The notes under the pieces are model-generated. The model was not told the DNA's origin, ran no database searches, and worked only from the letters and a program-made list of their open reading frames with translations. Below, piece by piece: positions 11,101-52,690 of a stretch of 64,000 nt of DNA (position 1 is the first letter of the stretch; each line of letters begins with the position of its first letter). The position numbers and the translations under genes are program-made. Origin of the DNA: Protula sp. h YS-2021 (Eukaryota > Annelida > Polychaeta > Sabellida > Serpulidae); assembly GCA_949752745.1 (NCBI GenBank), contig OX457033.1:17591907-17655906 (forward strand), read 5' to 3'.

Positions 11101-14100
11101 CCATTGGGTTCATAATTTAAAGCCAATGAGCAGAAATGGGACAGGGGAGCTAAGTGGCGTAACAGGCACGGTACTGCATTCGTCAACTGGCTCTCCAGTT
11201 CTGCGACATGGTCGGCTCCTAGGCGGTAACTCCGCAGACCAGGCGGTGAAGACCTAAAGCCCAATAAATAAATAAATAAAACAGTGACCAACTTAATGAA
11301 GATTTCAGGCCACTGGTACAGGACGTGTATCTACAGATTTACAGAATATATAATATAAATACTCGCATGTCATGAAATTTTTGGAACGCCCCAATAAATA
11401 CCACAAGCCTCTTTTTACAGCAGTGCTCGACCAGGCATTCTCCTCTCTTGCAAAGGCCTGCTATTGCAGTATCATCCTGGTCACAGCACTACAGCATTCG
11501 TGGGATACAACTTCACACGTAAATACTGATTGTAAATTTAAAATATAAGTTCCAGAATGAACTTCATTCAAGCTGGAATAGTGTTTGCTTTCTTGGCTGT
11601 TGCCACGGGCAATGCTATGGCAGTCGATGCGACACGTGACTCGCCATCCGATTTGAAGTCGTTTCTAAGCAGCCAGCACGTTGAACTTAAGCAGCTTCTC
11701 AATGCTATGGCAACGAAATTAGACTCACCTCTACACGATGGTAAGAGTTCGATTTTGTAATGTTACATCTTTGCTTACAATCTTTACTTATTATTCCTTG
11801 TAGTTTTATCTCAGTATTTATTTCATCAGATACCTGATGGTCATAATATGTAAAAGACATCATAAAAATTATTCGTTAGGGCGCTCGTTAAGTTTTTGTT
11901 ATTGTTCCTATTTTACATCAATTATACCTTAATTTGGAAGAATTTTTGAATCACTGCGTTGCATGAAATAAATAAAACAAAATTGACACCGCGTATATTT
12001 CTATCTACTTTCACATCAAATTAAGCGATAGAAAGTTGTGATTTTTTATGAATTTTTCCCCTCGCTATTTAATGTAGGGTGCGTTGGAGATGGTAACGGC
12101 CAAGCGGGTGCCAAAAACAACGCTTCCGGTGAGGTGGGCGTGAATTACGTACGGTGGGGAAGGATTTCCTGTTCCGACACGGCTGAGAAAATTTATGACG
12201 GTACGTGAAAATAACACCGCAACAGGTCAACAGAATTCTGTTCTTAAAGTTATTTATTTTACGTAGTTTATTCCTTCAAATAAATTAAGCTGCCCATTAT
12301 TTCAACAATAGTAGAATTTATGTCGAGCTGTCTATTATTTACAGATACAGAGTGTATATTTGAAAACAAAAACAGAAAAATAAACGGCTTAATATCTCAT
12401 TGGACCATACTCTTCAGATTTAATCACGTTGAACAAATAGGCCCAAGAGATAGCAAGTGGCAGCAGCCGCCCACAAAAAAGGGAAGAGTTTTTCCCTTTT
12501 ATGTAGTGTGTCAACACCACTATTAGCCACTACAGTCCGAAGCGGGTATATGTCTATGTTTATAGGATATGTGGGTAAATCACACTACACTCACGGCGGA
12601 GGTGTTAACTACCTATGCCTGCCCAGGGACCCGGAATTCCCCGCGGACGCCGCGAGCGGTCACCAGTCCAACGCTTACATCTACGGCACTGAGTACCAGC
12701 ACAATGGTTCGCCCGTGCTGCAGGCGAGTCTCAACGACAACGATGTCCCGTGTGTCGTGTGCGAAGCCAGTGGTCGCAGCCAGGTGCTCATGGTGCCCGC
12801 TAAGGCAACATGCCCCGCGGGGTGGAACAAGGAGTACCAGGGCCTGCTCATGTCGCAGCACTACACCGAACACGGCTCCGACTTCATCTGTGTGGCCGAC
12901 GGTATGGAGAGCCTGACCGGTGGCGCCACTAACCACAACGGCGGCCTGCTGTATGTGGTGGAGGCCGTCTGCGGCTCGCTTCCCCGCCCGCCATACAGCA
13001 ATGGCTACGAGCTCACCTGCGTCGTCTGCACCAAGTAAGGTGCTAGTCGTCTGCGGCGGAGTCGCGAAATAAACCCCAGTAAAAAAAATCACTCTAAAAA
13101 AATCGCCAATCGCTGGGGGACATTTATGGGCTAGGTTCATTTGAACGGGCATGAGTTATATATTTTGTGGCAACATCCCTTTGGCATCATAGCAACATTC
13201 TCGCACTACTGCAACAGCATTTGCGCTCTACTGTGCCCTTTATAATTTGTTTTATATTTCACAACAGCAACTGAAAATGTCCTCTGAGTCACTCGATTAG
13301 ATTTAGGCATCTACAGGAGACAATACCGTACTGTGGGTGGCGATTGGTTCTGCACCCCCCCCCCTTCCTCCAAACACACACACTGCCCCACTGCGATCCT
13401 GAATGCAGCGCAAAGTTTTCCAGCTCATAATCTTATCTCAAAATAGTAAGTTGCCTGTGTTGAAAGCTATATTGTAAAAGTAAATGTGTTGCATACGTTA
13501 AAAACATAAAGTATTCCTGTCACAAAATTGCCGTGCTATTTGAGAACAATTTCACTGTATTTACTGCATAAAACCTACTACATGTGCAAGCTCACTTAAT
13601 GGTACTCTGATTACTCTTATACTGCGTTTTCTTTATACTTGTTTTTTTTTCAGAGAAATTTCAAAACTGGTGCACATCAAGAATGTATCATTTTCCCATG
13701 TAGCAGCTGGAATTAACATTTTCTTGAATGTTAGAAGGAGGGGGAGGGGGTAGGTGAATTTTATCACACAGACTACATGTAGCATCTTTAATATTCCCAT
13801 GAAGTTAATTGCCTGTTGGCGAGGGGTCTCTCAGTTCAATTGCAATCCCCCTCCCCACCCCAACCAATCCCGGGTCATTTCCTTTTCTCTGGGCAGGGAG
13901 GAGAGGGTGGGAGAGGGGCTATCAAAACTAAACTTGAGCTCGCAAGCTGGCTGTGAATACCCTGCCTGTGTTATACTGACGGCAGGATAAGAATGCCCAA
14001 CTTGTAGGCGTGGGCTACACAAGTTTGACTGAAGCACGGGCCATACTCTTCTGTCAGGCGCACCAGCATTTTCATTTGAAAGCCAAGCACCTTCAGTGTT

Positions 14101-32308: not shown

Positions 32309-33123
32309 ATGAACTTTATTCAGACTGAAATAGCGTTTGCTTTCGTGGTATTTGGAATTGGAAATGGTCAAGCAGGTGCCAAAAACAACGCTTCTGGTGC
32401 GCTAGGCGTGAATTACGTGCAGTGGGGAAGGCTTTCCTGTCCCACCACGGCTGAGATAATTTATGGCGGTAAGTTAAAATAACACCTCAACAAGATATCA
32501 AAGTTCAACATGTCAAAATAGTTTTACTCATATTTTTTTATTTAGATAAACGAAATTGTACTCTGTTCAGTAATATTAGAATTTATGTTGAGCTATTATT
32601 TATAGAAGTGTATTTTTGAAAATAATTTAATCACGATCAATAATTTACAGGATACGTGGGTAAATCACACTACGCACAAGGCGGAGGAGTCAACTACCTA
32701 TGTCTTCCCAGGGATCCGGAATTCCCAGTGGAGGCCGCGGCCAACTACCAGTCCCGTTCATTTATCTATGGCACTGAGTACGAGCAGAACGGTTCGCCCA
32801 TGCTAGAATCCAGTCTCAACGATAACGATGTCCCATGTGCCGTGTGCGAAGCAAGCGGCCACAACCAGGTGCTCATGGTACCCGCTAAGGTAACATGCCC
32901 CTCGGGCTGGAGCAAGGAGTACCAGGGCCTGCTCATGTCGCAGCACCAGAATCAGCACGGCTCCGACTTCATCTGTGTGGCCGACGGAATGGAAAGCCTT
33001 GACGGTGGTGCCTCTAGCCTCGATGGCGCTCTTCTGTATGTGGTGGAGGTTGTCTGCGGCCCGCTTCCCTGCCCGCCATACATCAACGGCTACGAGCTCA
33101 CTTGCGTCGTATGTACCAAGTAG
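32309..33123 (+). CDS. Secreted short-chain-collagen-C4-like domain protein, copy 2
   Basis: Two coding exons, 32309-32468 and 32651-33123 (TAG), giving 210 aa. The domain matches copy 1 closely: NYVQWGRLSCPTTAE, GGGVNYLCLPRDPEF, NDNDVPCAVCEAS, CPSGWSKEYQGLLMS, GSDFICVADGMES and ELTCVVCTK. The difference is at the N-terminus. A deletion has removed the end of exon 1, intron 1 and the start of exon 2. The signal peptide (MNFIQTEIAFAFVVFGIG) now runs straight into NGQAGAKNNASG, with no helical linker. Frame, last-exon length (473 bp) and cysteines are kept, so it looks functional. The upstream ~180 bp (from 32127) is shared with copy 1. An open frame extends back to 32000 but lies in that shared non-coding flank, so the ATG at 32309 is the better start. 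Confidence 0.84.
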
Positions 33124-43059: not shown

Positions 43060-44465
43060 CTCTTTAATTCATTTTAAAGTCTTTGACAGGCATGACTGTA
43101 CGATAATAATTGCGAGTTTGTCAAGTACGACTGGTTTGTTAATTTCATTTCAAAGGTTTTATCAGGTGTGACTTTACAATAACAGCTGCAAGCTCATCAA
43201 GTACAACTGATTTGTTAATTTTGTGCTAAATCAAAAAAGGGACGGTTAAATTCGTTGTGTTTTATTAATAGGAAAGCTAAATGAATAAATTTTCGGTGAG
43301 TATTTTCAACATTCATGATAGGCTGATTAATCAAGTAACAAGTCAAATAAATGCCATTGGTTGTCTCACAAACACCTATACATTACTTAACTTAAACAAA
43401 ATTTTGTTTTGCTTTGCAAAACATTTACATCTGATCTTTTTACTTGTTATGATGTACAAGTTTGCTAATGTTAAGTTATGATTCTTTCACACTTTGAAAT
43501 TTAGGTAACAGATAAAAGTGATATAATATCATTAAACATCCAAATGTTAAGATAAGATAAGATAATCAGAAAAAAATGTGTATCATCACAAGGGGAATAC
43601 AAATATTGGGCAATTATTTACAATTCACAAGACTACTTGTTTTATTATTCTGAAGATTTTGACTGTTATTCTAGAAAAAAATTTAAATAGCAAAGCGACT
43701 AATGCCTGATAATATAAAGACACCCAAACATCTGCACCACACATGATCTGTCCCTTCTTAAAATCCAGCTCAAGATAAAATTTGATGCTTTAAGGCTTTA
43801 AGAAATGTTTGGCTGTGATATTTTTGACCTGCTTGCATTCTGCATTTTGTTCTGCAGGTACACTAAGATTTTAGTTATCAATCTCTTTATTAGACCAATT
43901 TCTCGAATGTGAATGGAATTGTATATATTCTAAAGTAATAATTAACTTTAGGTAAATAATATATGGACAGAGTTTATTACGAGCCGAAGGTCGTCGATTC
44001 AGGCATCGTCAAGCCTACGACCCACAACTTTTAGAATCCTACAGATTTTTAGAGTTATACGCTATATTTGTATATACAGTAGCAACAAACAAATATTCTC
44101 CACTCGAATGCTAATAAAAGAAATACATAAATGAGTTTAAATAGACAAGAAATCGAAGTAAAATTTGTTCTAAATTTTAAAAAAGCACAGAAAATAAACA
44201 AATATGAATGACGAAATGTACATTATTCAGCCTTTAAAACACCAGTGAGAGCACCTTTTTCTTTTGTTGAATTTTTTTCTGAAATGAAGTTGAAACGTTG
44301 TTATAAAACAGCTAACCTTTGAGTTAGAGCTTGGCTTTTGGACAACAATCGATGGTTTCCATTATATAAACTCTAAAAGCATGTTTTTGTCTAATATTTA
44401 CCTTACTTCAGATCATATATAGCTTTCTTCTCTAAAGGCAGACATACAGAATTTTGGTGGGATAA
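43060..44465. other. AT-rich intergenic stretch, nothing recognised
   Basis: No exon, RNA gene or repeat that I can support. One 66-aa open frame at 43281-43481 has no recognisable features. Confidence 0.4.
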
Positions 44466-44469
44466 TTTT

Positions 44470-45160
44470 AGGGAACGTCTAAATACACGCCGGAGGTATA
44501 TAAACCAGAATCCAGTGTTACATACACGCCAGGTTTAGACAATCCCACTGCGTGTTACAGCTGCGTCTGGAACAACAACACATGGATTTTCAAATAATTT
44601 CAAGATTTTTTATCCAATAATGGTAATTTATACATTGTTATGAACGATAAATAACTCTTTCTTACTAATCAAATCCTTATTTATTCATTAAGTTACCATG
44701 ATCTATTTAAAATTAGTCCTTTAAAAGTACTGTGTTATTTCTTCTAAAAATGGTGGTAGACATACGGCATTTCTATCGTGGTCAGTGGTGTATTTGGAAG
44801 AGCATAAGACTTTACAAAGTACATAATACCCCGGGCATGTATATAAGAACCAGTTCAGTGTTATATACAGAACCTATGGCAATTAATTAAGATGTTACTC
44901 ATTCTTATATACACGCCATTGCTTTGAATAGAATACAAACAAATTCCATCAAACTTGAAGTAAATGCTGGCGTGTAAATGCGTTTTGGAGTTATATACAC
45001 GCCAGAATGTGTGGTGTTTAAATAAGATGTCACACTATATTATACGCACACCACAATAGATTAAATATAGAACACCCATAATTACGCGATTTGCATGCTG
45101 AAAATATATATAAAAACACTAAATATACAAAATAATTTTAGTGGCGTGTATATAAGATAA
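44470..45160. repeat. Cluster of GGCGTGTATA / TATACACGCC ends
   Basis: Copies of the 10-mer in both orientations near 44483, 44522, 44912, 44967, 44996 and 45143, spaced 30-400 bases apart. They look like ends of small inverted-repeat elements of the family described at 45171-48082. Confidence 0.6.
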
Positions 45161-45170
45161 AAATATCTCT

Positions 45171-46056
45171 TATATATGTTACAGTCAATCTGTGTATTCA
45201 GTCAATACATGTACTGACTGAAATTTTTATGCAAAATATTTGACTGTGAACGAATAACAAAGTTGTTTTTCTACTAAAATTGCAATAATAAAATGAACGT
45301 TATGTGCTGGGTTAAAAAATATTGCAATTAATGCAAAAATAATCGTGTGTAAGTGACCCAATCATTTTTATGTCCAGAGTAACTAAAATTCTGAGCAATT
45401 AAGTACCCATTTACCTTGTTTTATTGTTTAATCCCGGAAAACATAAGCCATTTCCACATTTCACTACTACGTAGAAATAAGTAATTATCTTTTGGCACAT
45501 CGGTGACATCATTATAGATATTGTTCTAATATTCAGTAATTAATTACATTCTAAGAAGCAAGTCTATCTTTTCACTTAATTGCAATCGAAAAATATGTAT
45601 TGATGTGTAATTTTGTAATTATATTGATGTGCAATTATGTGATGAAGTATTTATATTTTGTTTTTTTTTAGTCAATTGCAACTTCACCGCTATTCAGATT
45701 ATTTGCATTCTAAGAATTGAGTATATCCATTGAATCTTTTGCAATCTCACATTATGTACCGATGCATATTTGTAATCGTGTACTTTAATGGATGTGCAAC
45801 TAAGAATGGAGGCATTAATATGTTATGTAATTATTGTCAAACAACTTAACAAGATGAATAAAATAACAACAGTTTTGTTTCAAATATTGAACAAAGTACT
45901 TCAGGCAATACGTGTATTGAGTGGTTTCTAATTTCAGTCAATACGTGAATTGCCTGAAAATTTTAGTCAGTGCACGTATTGTCTGACCTTTACAGCCAAT
46001 ACATGTATTGCCTAGAAATTTCAGTCAATACACGTATTGACTAACATATACACGCC
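45171..46056. mobile_element. Inverted-repeat element 1 (CAGTCAAT type)
   Basis: The left end reads TATATGTTACAGTCAATCTG and then a near-palindrome around CAGTCAATACATGTACTGAC. The right end, on the - strand, reads GGCGTGTATATGTTAGTCAA followed by TACGTGTATTGACTG. The two ends share the same TCAATAC-type palindrome. About 0.9 kb with no open frame; a non-autonomous DNA element is my best reading. Confidence 0.6.
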
Positions 46057-46287
46057 AGATTTTGAAAAGAAATGGATTTTTGTGAGTTGCATTTGTTACT
46101 ATTAGGATGTTTAAACTTAAGTTCTTCAATGTGTAAAATAATGGTGGAGTGTATATAACAAGCATTTGAGTGTTATATACACGCCAGAATAGGACCAGTT
46201 ACAACGATTCGTACATAAGGTGGCGTGTAAAAAGCACATATATATATATATATATACGCCCACGTGTATATTAGGCACAATTTGCTT

Positions 46288-46313
46288 TTATATACACGCC
46301 GGCGTGTATATAA
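46288..46313. repeat. Perfect 26-bp palindrome
   Basis: TTATATACACGCC followed directly by its reverse complement. It appears to be the head-to-head junction of two element ends. A 20-bp version lies at 48063-48082. Confidence 0.9.
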
Positions 46314-46321
46314 TTTATATT

Positions 46322-47588
46322 TGAACCGGCGTGTATATGTTACAGGCAATTTGAGTATTCAGGCAATTCGTGAACTGCCTGAAATTTTCAGGCAATTCGT
46401 GAACTGCCTGTAGGGATCAGGCAATTCGTGAATTAACTAAAATTTTCAGGCAGTTCGTGAATTGCCTGCAATTTAGGGGTTCCTTGTTTACAAATTGCCT
46501 AAAGTCGTTTCAGGCAATTTGTGTATCAAAATATTAACTGTTTAACAGAGCCAAATTTGTTAATTTTTTTTCTTTATAATCGAAATAGTTGCAATTAAGG
46601 CATGTACTTGGGGAAATATAACAGGGGGTCTTAGTATACGTGTCTTACCTGACCATGTTTCATAACTGCAATTATGGCTTGAGTAAAACATTGTCCTATG
46701 GGCTCCAGTTTCCGGAATAGATCAATGGCCAATAATGTTTCTCACCGGAGTAGGGAATCAACTAAGTGGCCTATCACTTTCCTTCCAAGTTACTCGGAGG
46801 TTTAGGTCTTAAACTATAAAAGTAACAACAAGTTACTTCTGTCGTTATTTGAAAGCAGGTCTAAAAATTGCAAGTTAATTTCTTGTGATAAATTTAAAAT
46901 CCAAGATTTTAACGAGTCTGTTATTTCCAACCGGATGAATTGCAAGAAAACTGAAGGATTAAATTTATTTCCAAATAAACCTCTGTAATTAAACACAATC
47001 CAATCTGTTGTGGGAGTTTATGGTTTAGAATTGCAATTATACATTGATGTAACCGCTATATAAGTATGGTGTATGCCTTTTTCTTGATACAATTGCAATT
47101 AACGGGCATCAGAGTGGAGTGCTATTATGCAACTGAGTTCGTGGTGAAATGCATGCAAAGTGATTCTTTGATGTAAAGATAAACGCTAATTACTTGTTAT
47201 AATTGCAATTAACACGCAGCAGAGTGCTCTTTTATGGTGGTAATGAAGTGGGATGTTTTAGTTCAAATAACCAGTAGATGAATGCAATTTATGATAAAAA
47301 AATAATTATCAACGGAGTTTCTGATGTACGATTGATGTAAATATGAACGTTTAATTCTTGTACAGGCAACTATTGCTTTATAACTGCCTATGAAATTTAG
47401 CAATAAATAGAAGAAACATTAAAACTTGTTCAACATCTCTTATAAAACATGTTTCAGGCAATTCGTGAACTGACTGGTCCCTAATTCCAGGCAATTCGCG
47501 AACTGCCTGAAAATTTAGTTAATTCACGAATTGCCTGACCAATTCACGAATTGCCTGAATACACAAATTGTCTGTAACGTATATATGT
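46322..47588. mobile_element. Inverted-repeat element 2 (CAGGCAAT type)
   Basis: The left end (46328-46381) reads GGCGTGTATATGTTACAGGC, AATT, a spacer, then the near-palindrome CAGGCAATTCGTGAACTGCC. The right end (47544-47588), read on the - strand, is CATATATACGTTACAGACAA then TTTGTGTATTCAGGCAATTC. Arms of about 48 bp match at roughly 90%. The palindrome is repeated three to four times just inside each end (46360-46470 and 47455-47565). About 1.27 kb, non-coding. Confidence 0.65.
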
Positions 47589-48082
47589 TACAGGGAATCT
47601 GTGTAATTTCGGATTTCGCGAAATCATTAGGGAATTCGTGTAATGAATAAGCTCATGTTGATCATAAAACTATTTTGAAAAATTATCCATTCAGAAAGGC
47701 TGTTCAGTGGTTCTTCAAACTGTGTATCCCTTTTCATATCGAAAGAAATTGGAATTTATAACATTACCATCCAAAATAACAGAATTTGACGTAAAATGTG
47801 ACGTAAGTTACATAGGATAAAAAATGTCGCTAAATTCGGGTACTGCAGGATCTCATGAATGATGGTTTGGCAATCGAGTGCTTTGAGTATATTAATTCAA
47901 AATCTACTATTAAATTCGGTAAAATACTACATTGCAAACATGAAAATTCTCAATAGAAACATCGAAATTGATTGAGCAAGTTATTACACGAATCCACTAG
48001 GGATTTCATGAAATCCCTAATTTCACAGATTCCCTGTAACATACACAAGATTGATTTCGGAGTATACACGCCGGCGTGTATA
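47575..48082. mobile_element. Inverted-repeat element 3 (CAGGGAAT type)
   Basis: The left end is TATATGTTACAGGGAATCTG then TGTAATTTCGG, followed by a TTTCGCGAAA palindrome. The right end on the - strand is GTGTATGTTACAGGGAATCT then GTGAAATTAGGG, followed by the palindrome GGGATTTCATGAAATCCC. It closes with TATACACGCCGGCGTGTATA at 48063-48082. About 0.5 kb, sharing its left boundary sequence with element 2. Confidence 0.6.
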
Positions 48083-48644
48083 TAGCTTCACCCATAATTT
48101 TTTGGGCGATAATTGCAGTTTGTTGTAGACTTACGGGAAGATAGCAAATGAATGTTTCCACAGGTAAAGACAAGTTGTTTCACCAGAAGGAAAAATAACA
48201 ACAAAACCGAACCAGAAAATGGAAAAGAGCTTGAAAATGGAAGTTTACTCGTACCAATAATTTAGCTCTAAGTCAGCCCTTCATTATTTTTACTTGATAT
48301 ATTTCTTTATCATACGCCAAACCTCAGGTGTAGGTCGTTTCAAGGACCTACCATTAACTGTAAAACCCTCGGTGAGAAAAACCGATAATAATATACCATC
48401 ATTTGCAGACTGCAACTTTTTTTGTCAGCTGTTGTACTTTTTTATTTATAAAATCAGGACTTTCTCTACACGTAAGGGTTCAAGAAAACAATTAGCCTGG
48501 AATTTCCTTCATATTTCTTGTTCTGCAGTTCTGTTGTATATCGTGATATATGCACGGCCTGTGCAACAAGCCAGTTCACGGTTTCGAGTGAGCATGCTCA
48601 GTAGAAGAAACTCACAGGCTTCTATTTTGAAAGGTAAACGGAAC

Positions 48645-48759: not shown

Positions 48760-48834
48760 GTATTCCTATCGGTTTGCGGGCGGTGTCCGTTAGTTAGTTA
48801 GTTAGTTAGTTGTTTATTTAGTAAACTTTGGTTC

Positions 48835-50330
48835 AAAATGCATCTCCTCCTACAATTTTGATCCGATGTCATTTATTTTTGGTGTGAGGCATCCCGAAGG
48901 GGTCGTGCATACGGCTTGTGCTTTTCTAGTCGATCGGGTGATTTTTGAATTTTTGGCGAATTTTTAAAGAAAAAATTTTAAAATGTATCTCCTCCTACAT
49001 TTTTGACCGGATGTGATGTATTTTTGGTATGAGGCACCCCTAAAGTGTCGTGCATACGGCTTGTGCTTTTTTAGTCGATCGGGCAATTTTTGTATTTTTG
49101 GGGAATTTTTTAAGCAAAAATTTAGAAAATAATTCAAAATGCATCTACTCCTACAATTTTGATTCGATGTCATTTATTTTTGGTTTGAGGCATCCCTAAG
49201 GGGTCGTGCATACGGCTTGTGCTTTTTTAGTCGATCGGGTGATTTTTGAATTTTTGGGGAATTTTTAAAGAAAAAATTTTAAAATGTATCTCCTCCTACA
49301 TTTTTGACCGGATGTGATTTATTTTTGGTATGAGGCACCCCTAAAGGGTCGTGCATACGGCTTGTGCTTTTTTAGTCGATCGGGCAATTTTTGTATTTTT
49401 GGGGAATTTTTTAAGCAAAAATTTAGAAAATAATTCAAAATGCATCTACTCCTACAATTTTGATTCGATGTCATTTATTTTTGGTTTGAGGCATCCCTAA
49501 GGAGTCGTGCACACGGCTTGTGCTTTTTTAGTCGATCGGGTGATTTTTGAATTTTTGGGGAATTTTTGAAGAAAAAACATTTAAAATGTATCTCGTCCTA
49601 CATTTTTGATCCGAAACCTCTCAAAGATCCGATGACCCTAAAAGGTCGTGCATACGGCTCGTGCTTTTTAGTCGATCGGACAATTTTTGTATTTTTAGGG
49701 AGCTTTTGAAAAAAAAAAAACTTCAAAATGTATTTTCCCCTACAGTTTTGATCTTTCTCTCTCTCTCTTTTTTTTTTTTTTTTTTTTTTTGGTTTGAGGC
49801 ATCCCTAAGGGGTTGAGCATACGGCGTGCGCTTTTTACTCGATCCGATAATTTCTGTATTATAAGGGAATTTTTGAAAAAAAAACTTCAAATGCATTTCC
49901 TCCTACAGTTTTAATCCGATTTCATTTATTTTTGGTATGAGGCATCCTTAGGTGGGTCGGGCATACGGCTTGTGTTTTTTTACTCGACTTGTGAATTCTT
50001 GATTTCGATAGGGAATTTTTGATGAAAATACCTCAAAATGCATCTTCTCCTGCAGTTTTGATCAGACATCATTTAATTTGGGGCTGAGGCATGCTTAGGG
50101 TGTCGTGAATACGGCCTGTGCTTTTCGAGTCGATCAGAATTTTTGGGGAAATTTTGAATAAAAAAACTTCAAAATGCATTTCCTCCTACTGTTTTTATCA
50201 GATTTCATTTATTTTTTATACAAGCCGACTTTAGGGGGTCATGCATACGGCTTATGCTCTTTGAGTGAATTGGAAAACTTTTGAATTTTTTTCGGAATTT
50301 AAAAAAAAATAATAAATGAATCTTCTCCTG
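48835..50330. repeat. Tandem array with 301-bp dimeric higher-order unit
   Basis: Nine to ten units beginning AAAATG(C/T)ATCT, at 48835, 48980, 49136, 49281, 49437, 49583 and on to ~50173. Spacing alternates 145 and 156 bases at the left, giving a 301-base dimer, and decays to the right. Each unit has TCGTGCATACGGCTTGTGCT and AGTCGATCGGG. Confidence 0.9.
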
Positions 50331-52690
50331 CAGCGCATAAACGCAAGTTAAATGAACTTGCGCAGTAGTCAGATTTAACAACCGCACATCGACGCAAGTT
50401 AAATAAACATTCGTATTGGTCCGAAATGTGAACCATTGACAGAAGATAAACATGCAAACTGGTCCAAAATAAGCACCGCGCATCAACGCAAGTTAAATAA
50501 ACATGCGCAATGGTCCGCAAAAAAGAACTACGCGTCGACGCAAATCGAATAGACATGCGCAGTGGTCCGAAATGCGGATCGAGCATCAACGCAACCTAAA
50601 GAAACATGCGCACTGGTCCGAAATGCGAACCGCGCATCAACGCAAGTTGAATAAATATGCACACTGGTCCGAAAAAAAGAACCGCGCATCAGCGCAACCC
50701 AAAGAAACATGCGCACTGGTCTGAAATGAGAACCACGCATCAACGCAAGTTAAATAAACATGGGCAATGGTCGGAAATGCGAACCGCGCATCGATGGATG
50801 TTAAATAAACATGCGATCCGGTCCAAAATAAGCACCGCACATCAACGCAAGTTAAACAAACATGCGCACTTGTCCGAAAAAAGAACCACACATTGGCGAA
50901 AGTTGAATAGACATGCGCAGTGGTCTGAAATGAGAACCTCGCATCAACGCAAGTTAAATAAACATTCGCAGTGGTCCGAAGAAAGAACCACGAATCGACG
51001 CAAGTTGAATAGACATAAGAGTCGCACTTCGACGGGACTGAAATAAACATGCGTTCTGGTCCGAAATGCAATTCGCGTGTCAACGCAAGTTAAGTGAACC
51101 TACGCACTGGTCCGAAATGCGAACCTCGCATGAACGCAACCTAAAGAAACAGGTACACTGGTCCGAATTTCGGACCGCTCCTCAGCGCAAGTTAAATACA
51201 CATTTGCACTGATCTAAAATAAGTACCGAGCACCAACACAAGTTAAATAAATATGCGCACTTTTCCAAAATGCGAACCACGCATCAACACAAGTTAAATA
51301 AACGTGCGCACTGGTGGAAATGCGAAACGTTCATTAACGCAAGCTAAATAAACAAACACACTGGTCAGAAATGGGAACCGAGCATTAACGCAAGTTAAAT
51401 AAACATGCGCACTGGTTAGAAATGCGAACCGAACTGCGCATTAACGCAAGTTAAATAACGTGCGCACTATTCAAAATAAAAACTGCGTATCAACGCAACT
51501 TAAATAAACATGCGCACTGGTCCAGAATAAGAACCGCGCATCAACTCAAATTAAAGAAATATGCGCATTGGCCTGAAATAAGAACCGCACATCGACACAC
51601 GTTAAATAAACATGCGCAGTGGTTCGAAATGCGAACCACGCGCCAACGGAAGTTAAATAAATATTTGCACTGGTCCAAAATAAGCACCGCGCATCAACGC
51701 AAGTTAAATAAACATGCGCACTGGTCCAAAATTCGAACTGCTCATCAACGCAAGTTGAATAAACATGCGCACTGGTCCAAAATGCAAACCGCGCACCAAC
51801 GCAAGTTAGATTAACATATGCACACGTCCAAAATAAGCACCGTGCATCAACGCAAGATAGATAAACATGCAAACTCTTCCGAAATGCGAACCGCGCATCA
51901 AGGCAACCTAAGGAAACTTGTACACTTGTCCAAAATAAGTACCGCTCATCAACACAAGTAAAATAAATATGCGCACTGATCCGTAATAAGAACCGCACAT
52001 CAACACAAGTAAATAAACATGCGCATTGATCCGAAAGAAGAACCGCACATCAACACAAGGTAAATAAACATGCGCACTGATCCGAAATAAGAACCGCACA
52101 TCAACACAAGTTAAATGAACATGTGCACTGGTCCAAAATAAGCACCGCGCATCAACGCAAGTTAAATAAACATGCGCACTGGTCCGAAATTCGAACCGCG
52201 CATCAACGTCACTGAAATAAACGTGTGGAGTGGTTCGAAATGTGAACCACGCTCCAACGCAAGTTAAATAAACATTTGTACTGGTCCAGAATAAGCACCG
52301 CGCATCAATGCAAGTTAAATAAACATGCGCACTGGTCCGATATTCGAACCGCGCGTCAACGCAAGTTAAATAAACATGCACACCGTGCAAGTTATATAAA
52401 CATGCAAACTCTTCCGAAATGCGAACCGCGCATCAAGACAACCTAAGGAAACTTGTGCACTTGTCCAAAATAAGTACCGCTCATCAACGAAAGTAAAATA
52501 AACATGCGCATTGGTCTGGAATAAGAACCGCGCATTAATCTTTATTAAGTTAAATGAATATGTGCACGGTTCCAAAATGAGAGCCGCGCATCAACGCAAA
52601 TTAAATAAACATGCGTACTTGTCTGAATAAGAACCGCGCATCGAGGCAAGTTACATAAATATGCGCACTGGTCCGAAATGCGAGCGTTGT
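50330..52690. repeat. 51-bp satellite array
   Basis: About 45 copies of a 51-base unit (ACGCAAGTTAAATAAACATG CGCACTGGTCCGAAATGCGA ACCGCGCATCA). As 51 is 17 codons, open frames of up to 160 aa arise on both strands, with a 17-residue period (AHVYLTCVDARF-type on the - strand). Frames are broken many times by indels, so I read it as satellite DNA and not coding. Confidence 0.92.

Follow-up and report, generated by a model that had tools for sequence, protein, structure and literature searches.

Family-specific palindrome arrays at the ends of Ginger2/TDD-like elements in the genome of the annelid Protula: candidate transposase binding sites

Three nested elements in the window

Based on a 64-kb stretch of the genome of the serpulid annelid Protula sp. 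h YS-2021 (GCA_949752745.1, contig OX457033.1, positions 17,591,907 to 17,655,906; hereafter the window) and on genome-wide searches of the 863-Mb assembly that contains it, three neighbouring transposon-like elements with palindrome arrays in their arms, A, B and C, have been delimited (Table 1). They are real inverted-repeat elements, as a preliminary description of this DNA had proposed: the paired ends were found at five of the six tips, the arms are collinear, and A and B are enclosed by TATA duplications. The termini of all three read TGTTACAG...CTGTAACA with minor deviations, and the right end of B is CTGTAACG. With at most one mismatch allowed, the only matches to TATATGTTACAG in the window are those at 45173(+), 46334(+), 47572(-), 47582(+) and 48034(-), that is, at five of the six element ends; with two mismatches allowed, 21 matches were found against 8.2 expected. 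According to the arm alignment, about 19 bp of the end are deleted at the right tip of A, beyond which its two arms can be matched for some 100 columns, loosely toward the interior. The arms of B are collinear along some 190 columns, interrupted by a gap of about 38 and matching more weakly after about 135, and those of C align over 61 bp at 85%. The target-site duplication (TSD), which the preliminary description had left to be checked, is exact in A and B, and C has TATA on its left and TACA, not TATA, on its right. Elements of different classes stand side by side at common TATA runs, as adjacent insertions, not only at 47580-47585 but also at L081:3066-3079 and L049:953-958.

All three elements lie within a repeat, X, which looks, from its sequence, like a non-autonomous Mutator-like element (MULE) of about 1.05 kb. 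MULEs generate TSDs of 8-11 bp. The genome copies of X align to the window between about 44466 and 48102, and the TSD is identical at nine of nine positions in L011 (TATTTTTTA on both sides) and at eight of nine in the window, these being the two copies checked. The X copies in L010 and L011 continue across the insertion point of A without A, and so represent a paralogous empty site, and when the flanks of A are joined, a clean 40-bp palindromic unit (GGCGTGTATATAAG...CTTATATACACGCC) is obtained that resembles the intact unit at 46146-46185. B and C lie in tandem within another such unit. With at most one mismatch, GGCGTGTATAT has 16 matches in the window, all in 44481-48083, against 0.66 expected. 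Because GGCGTGTATAT-like sites cluster in X, removal of A restores a unit, and L010 and L011 are without A, the sequence GGCGTGTATA, previously read as an outer end common to the three elements, is target DNA, part of a 40-bp palindromic unit of X; GGCGTGTATATGTTACAG occurs literally in the window only at the left end of B, and has 11 matches in the genome versus 3,423 for the wider end pattern given below. The first eight loci collected adjoin GGCGTG by design, as the search pattern demanded it. General targeting of X by these elements was rejected, for none of the 24 C1-list elements is in an X-type unit; 12 of the 24 touch a TA run of at least 8 bp. The 40-bp units of X have variable centres, and some stand in direct tandem with ACACGCCGGCGTGT junctions; palindromic arrays are thus present in an unrelated MULE-like element too.

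Palindrome arrays in the arms

The palindromes are arrays of sites in collinear terminal inverted repeats (TIRs), and are self-complementary around a two-base centre. In the left arm of B the pitch is 29-29-29 bp, followed at 33 bp by a fifth, decayed unit (placed by analogy, with the support of the arm alignment), and in the right arm it is 28 and 33 bp. Position 9 of the half-site is T in all 16 half-sites of B and A in 10 of the 12 of A; when A is compared with B, this position differs at nine of 10 half-sites, whereas 33 of the 135 remaining sites differ (P 6e-5), and the separation of A from B units was matched by 5 of 20,000 label shuffles. The palindromes of C are of the type GGGATTTC(A/G)(T/C)GAAATCCC, perfect in the right arm and decayed in the left. 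The earlier statement that each element carries its own palindrome at both ends holds for position 9 in A and B and for the separate type of C, but must be qualified for the mixed units in A (e.g. CAGTCAATACGTGAATTGCCTG at 45935) and for the decayed left side of C. When the class columns were omitted, the true order of the A and B units obtained the top score (tied by four of 120 permutations, itself counted), and because of this the arrays look, on sequence comparison, older than the split between A and B.

End families across the genome

Eleven end families (classes), two of them closely related (TCg and TCa), have been separated. They have a common register, with sites at about 23, 52, 81 and 110 bp from the tip and decay varying by family; in two families the first gap is 9 bp shorter. 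In six of the eight classes with a 29-bp pitch, units 1 and 3 are each followed by a spacer of AAAATTT or AAACTTT type, as judged by eye; these spacers are unclear in TCg and TCa. These comparisons used one arm per class, chosen for completeness, with unit positions set by eye; the automatic threshold for a unit was eight of 10 pairs, the fourth unit of A was taken at 139 (143 in other arms), and TA, TCg and GGCC fall partly under that threshold. Within an element, units differ at 2.7 of 20 bases, and between classes at 9.0; none of 5,000 shuffles, plain or position-stratified, gave a value as low. The half-site beside the tip echoes the arm of its own class at 40 of 44 letters (permutation mean 30.3; 0 of 20,000), half of these letters falling at a near-constant AG, and in eight of the 11 classes, all but TA, TCg and TCa, tip and arm agree in both class letters.

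The pattern TATATGTTACAGNNAA has 3,423 matches in the genome versus 29 for the reversed control. Among the first 100 places listed, all on one contig (0-25.6 Mb), 27 facing pairs less than 6 kb apart were found, 24 of which agree at both ends in the two class bases, NN (mean under shuffling 7.5, maximum 18 in 100,000), and the three unequal pairs (L039, L049 and L052) show a one-base difference within one family. Full reading of 24 of these 27 pairs placed both ends nearest the same class in all 24, the class call being narrow at the decayed right ends of L049 and L050 (27 vs 24 and 27 vs 23, of 44). Altogether, 41 of the 42 elements tested, some of which are class references or were picked by their ends, have both ends nearest the same class, and the exception is A of the window, whose tip is deleted. 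Random mixing of left and right palindromes, the test set in the preliminary description, was not observed among these elements, and the palindromes do not belong to one simple satellite. The tip bases of the 36 strict A-type ends are TC in 35 and GC in one, and those of the strict B-type ends (160 in all) are GC in 98, TC in one and AC in one of the 100 listed. All facing B pairs in these 100 of the 160 places span less than 2 kb, and no full autonomous B was seen among them.

That such arms form single-stranded hairpins or cruciforms in transposition or replication, with selection on self-complementarity only, seems most improbable. It would agree with the two-base centres, and with TCg and the second C unit, which keep much of their self-complementarity though their outer letters depart from those of sister units. 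However, most classes repeat the same letters over four to five units, at both ends and in the tip, beyond what self-complementarity demands, and integrases of this fold act on double-stranded ends.

Integrase genes linked to the end families

Eight of the end classes flank an integrase gene or its relic. Of 132 scored integrase matches, 20 were examined as loci, together with L085; four of the 20 (L066, L075, L076 and L080) had no end in the stretch examined and were excluded from class comparisons. The class follows the integrase tree (for TCa, the arm was from L072 and the integrase from L073). The product of the TCg-class gene, P0002, matches PF00665 (2.7e-8) and PF17921 (2.5e-6), both above the cut-off; P0003 matches both domains below it, and the partial relic P0001 gives weak domain matches. 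Among the homologues that have a name, many bear that of KRAB-A domain-containing protein 2-like, and close relatives of the integrase are present in molluscs and crustaceans. An integrase-bearing relative of C is in L069, which holds the protein of P0002 in pieces. Between classes, integrase identity is 0.56 in the N-terminal region, 0.53-0.66 in the C-terminal region and 0.68 in the core. A structure model of P0012, a protein obtained in the protein search (mean pLDDT 65, pTM 0.38), has an N-terminal part of three helices and a hairpin, with block pLDDT 86-94 over residues 11-80, for which no fold is claimed. A 598-aa reverse-transcriptase-like frame at L057:1743-3536 (minus strand), within a 3.5-kb TCg element, is apparently, by its sequence, a retroelement fragment inside that element.

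The linkage of class to integrase bears on two further explanations. We regard as unlikely a concerted evolution without specificity, by which units would be homogenised in each element (through gene conversion, hairpin-templated repair or unequal exchange, as happens in satellites) while families drift apart. It would explain why units are alike within an element, and why the arms of B have private changes in common position by position, as if one arm had copied the other; but position-specific features persist while position 9 of the half-site is altered in almost every unit, the register can be recognised even between divergent families, in most classes the partial terminal half-site is altered as well, and the class tracks the integrase. 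Gene conversion between arms, suggested in the preliminary description, or between units may have been the mutational route, but the palindrome class also follows the integrase.

A host chromatin protein or transcription factor that binds the palindromes, with different families recruiting different factors, is quite improbable in our judgement. Sites for host factors may exist, as a class-independent second motif (ATTGCAAT, AATTGCAA or TTGCAATT) is enriched in the bodies of the elements: 122 copies were counted in 46.7 kb of element interiors versus 9.8 expected, or about 12-fold (first-order Markov model; maximum 16 in 30 runs), and 21 in 60.4 kb of the rest of the window. The enrichment is seen in many classes, e.g. 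at 45177-46046 and 46338-47579 and in L074, L069 and L058, and the motif is absent from the short C-type copies tested; it may be a common host-factor or regulatory site. The palindromes, however, lie at set distances from the cut on either side of the element, most of their letters are found again in the terminal half-site beside the cleavage site, and their class follows the integrase tree.

Other features of the window

The coordinates of the elements and the end classes are collected in Table 1. To the right of X lie long tandem arrays, at 48832-50251 (136-301-bp period) and 50446-52677 (51-bp period). Two related open frames (GYVGKSHY...GGGVNYLCLP...) at 12454-13038 and 32644-33123, about 20 kb apart, are likely paralogous exons. 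No part of the window matched Rfam at the gathering score, and neither the palindrome pattern nor the 40-bp unit pattern was matched exactly in viral contigs.

Table 1. Features of the window (positions in the window) and palindromes of the end classes (unit starts in bp from the tip)
Feature	Position	Strand	Remarks
Element X	44471..48093	none	MULE-like, non-autonomous repeat; about 1.05 kb minus A, B and C; ends GGGAACGTC...GCTTCACCC; several 40-bp palindromic GGCGTGTATATAA units; homologous copies and ends in L010, L011, L012 and L014
X left target duplication	44462..44470	none	9 bp, ATAATTTTA
X right target duplication	48094..48102	none	9 bp, ATAATTTTT
Left portion of 40-bp X unit holding A	45143..45176	+	ends in TSD TATA, 45173-45176
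Element A	45177..46046	none	870 bp, non-autonomous; palindrome arm CAGTCAATAC; TSD TATA/TATA; ends TGTTACAG...TAACA
A left-arm palindrome unit	45199..45220	none	
A right-arm palindrome units, five	45902..46043	none	pitch 29, 29, 29 and 33 bp
Intact 40-bp palindromic X unit	46146..46185	none	no insert
Element B	46338..47579	none	1242 bp, non-autonomous; palindrome arm CAGGCAATTC; TSD TATA/TATA
B left arm	46338..46530	+	tip, half-site, palindromes at 46360, 46389, 46418 and 46447, decayed one at about 46480
B right arm	47430..47579	-	collinear with left arm
TATATA between B and C	47580..47585	none	overlapping target sites, two tandem insertions
Element C	47586..48041	none	456 bp; palindrome arm TAGGGATTTC; in a family of mostly 457-bp miniature inverted-repeat transposable elements
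Perfect 22-bp palindrome in C right arm	47998..48019	none	TAGGGATTTCATGAAATCCCTA
Right portion of X unit that took in B and C	48042..48072	none	
Class A	23, 52, 81, further at 139 or 143		arm AGTCAATAC
Class B	23, 52, 81, 110 or 111		arm AGGCAATTC
Class C	23, 52, 81, 110 or 111		arm AGGGATTTC
Class TA	81, 143 only		arm AGGAATTTC or AGGAATTAC; remaining sites imperfect
Class GCA	23, 81, 110		arm AGGCAGATT
Class CG	23, 52, 81, 110 or 111		arm AGCGAATCT
Class GGGA	23, 43, 72, 102		arm AGGGAAACT
Class GGGT	23, 111		arm AGGGAGATT
Class GGCC	23, 43, 72		arm AGGCTATGT
Class TCg	23, 111		arm around GCCATTTC, related to TCa
Class TCa	all four, over its two arms		arm around GCCATTTC, related to TCg

Interpretation

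The most probable reading, to which we give a probability of about 0.7, is that the palindromes are binding sites of each family's own transposase, whose specificity has been switched in concert across the sites, many times. Element-specific recognition sites had been suggested before, and by end pairing and by the link of class to integrase the palindromes behave as such. This reading builds on what is observed in this genome, namely the common scaffold, the pairing of ends, the class-specific sites, the tip echo in most classes and the occurrence of eight classes beside integrase genes or their relics. In this reading the transposase itself would read the palindromes, by its C-terminal CXC-like domain or by its N-terminal helical part, and the non-autonomous copies would have moved only within their class.

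A, B and C would then represent three families of Ginger2/TDD-like transposons, non-autonomous and moving by cut-and-paste, that entered palindromic units of an older MULE-like element at TATA. Each end would consist of the tip TGTTACAG, used for cleavage and strand transfer, a half-site, and about four to five palindromic sites of 20-22 bp at set distances, and the integrase-type transposase of the family would bind these palindromes as dimers, and so find and pair only its own ends. As the DNA-reading specificity of a lineage shifts, the sites of the element would shift along with it at symmetric positions, with the tip, the spacing and most spacers kept; gene conversion between units may supply the changes, of which selection by the transposase would retain matching sets. 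The outcome would be a genome with at least 11 end families, each under its own label, although two of the families are close relatives.

Several points weigh against this reading. The Mantel correlation is modest, over nine classes, and no region of the integrase stands out clearly as the reader, within-class identity also being lower in the N- and C-terminal regions. The CXC-like domain (PF03638) is matched weakly in eight of nine segments (best 0.0035; member 1 has 16.7 bits against a cut-off of 23.5), and its profile had no match among solved chains. The search found no intact autonomous partner for A or B. The tip echo fails in TCg and TCa and is partial in TA, the sites of TA are imperfect, and outer letters vary among units of the same arm in TCg, the least uniform class, and once in C. 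L085, with its half-A/half-B sites, is a one-ended relic. Moreover, copies within a family share descent, so that the shuffles gauge clustering and not independent events; the large counts represent linkage of class features rather than many independent events, and what counts as independent evidence is that there are 11 classes, of which two are close relatives, together with the comparison of A with B.

In L085, the palindromes at 107-230 pair one A-type with one B-type half-site, and are possibly an evolutionary intermediate; the A pattern also matches two similar places nearby (C3:1381811 and C3:1393403). We see an even chance that the genome of a single animal contains a natural library of transposase-end specificities, at least 11 in number, that share one scaffold but are separate from one another, in which palindromes and transposase switched together repeatedly via intermediates of old and new half-sites such as L085, and from which the code of the Ginger2 transposase might be worked out with sequence data only. 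It is an old question how a protein that binds DNA and the several sites it binds can change specificity in concert, and here many sites per element, both ends, the half-site at the tip and the gene of a linked protein have changed in register across many families of one genome, with a possible intermediate. The residues that determine specificity would become testable by sequence and simple excision assays, the escape of related transposon families from cross-mobilisation would be explained, and palindrome arrays would become a diagnostic feature of Ginger2-like ends.

Comparison with known systems

No named family had been recognised for these elements in the preliminary description, but their ends, duplication, target and encoded protein domains fit, at the sequence level, non-autonomous Ginger2/TDD-like transposons. 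Ginger2/TDD elements have TGTNR ends, a 4-bp TSD in RTATAY and TIRs of about 50-180 bp (longer in TDD-4 and TDD-5), encode an H2C2 zinc finger and a DDE integrase core but no GPY/F or YPYY motif, and have non-autonomous derivatives (Bao, Kapitonov and Jurka 2010, PMC2836005). Likewise, the ends in the window and those flanking the integrase genes start with TGTTACAG or a one-base variant, although the genome-wide end searches demanded TGTTACAG-type letters in the pattern itself. The TATA/TATA of A and B and the TATA/TACA of C agree with the RTATAY target. A pattern for the left end only gave, at eight loci, seven right-end-like strings, six of them followed by TATA (the seventh, in L005, being internal sequence without palindromes, and L004 having none in the stretch examined), whereas in the larger genome-wide set TATA was demanded by the pattern. 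The TIRs are of similar size (about 61 bp in C, about 190 alignable columns in B, and identical over the 140 bp compared in L058), and P0002 supplies the H2C2 and DDE domains. In short, ends, TATA duplication, TIR size, domain layout and non-autonomous derivatives are common to both. Unlike in the Ginger2/TDD description, however, the TIRs here are family-specific palindrome arrays that follow one scaffold, the genome contains no fewer than 11 end families, and a CXC-like domain is weakly matched at the C-terminus. The string "palindrom" is absent from the main text of PMC2836005, and in the open-licence literature searched we could not find an account of regular palindrome arrays with family-specific letters in Ginger2. 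Ginger1, defined by a CCGG or CCGT target duplication (PMC2836005), does not agree with the TATA found here. An assignment to Pogo/Tc1-like elements with a TA duplication was dropped, as it would leave longer, odd empty sites.

CACTA/Spm and Ac/Ds also carry multiple family-specific subterminal sites for their transposases, but these motifs are short, mostly non-palindromic and irregular in position and orientation. The rice element Micron resembles the present elements in its insertion into TA-rich microsatellites, but has no palindrome array, and its ends are unrelated. The piggyBac elements form a different superfamily with TTAA targets. In piggyBac and piggyBat, cysteine-rich C-terminal domains of the transposase pair on palindromes near the ends, with a specificity that varies among relatives; the palindromes of piggyBac are 19 bp long and asymmetrically placed, and piggyBat has three imperfect ones at one end (PMC11707139). 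This situation differs from that in Protula in that no radiation of matched classes within one genome is described for them in the available text of PMC11707139. By likeness to these cysteine-rich domains on palindromes, the simplest account of the arrays in Protula would be that they are dimer sites.
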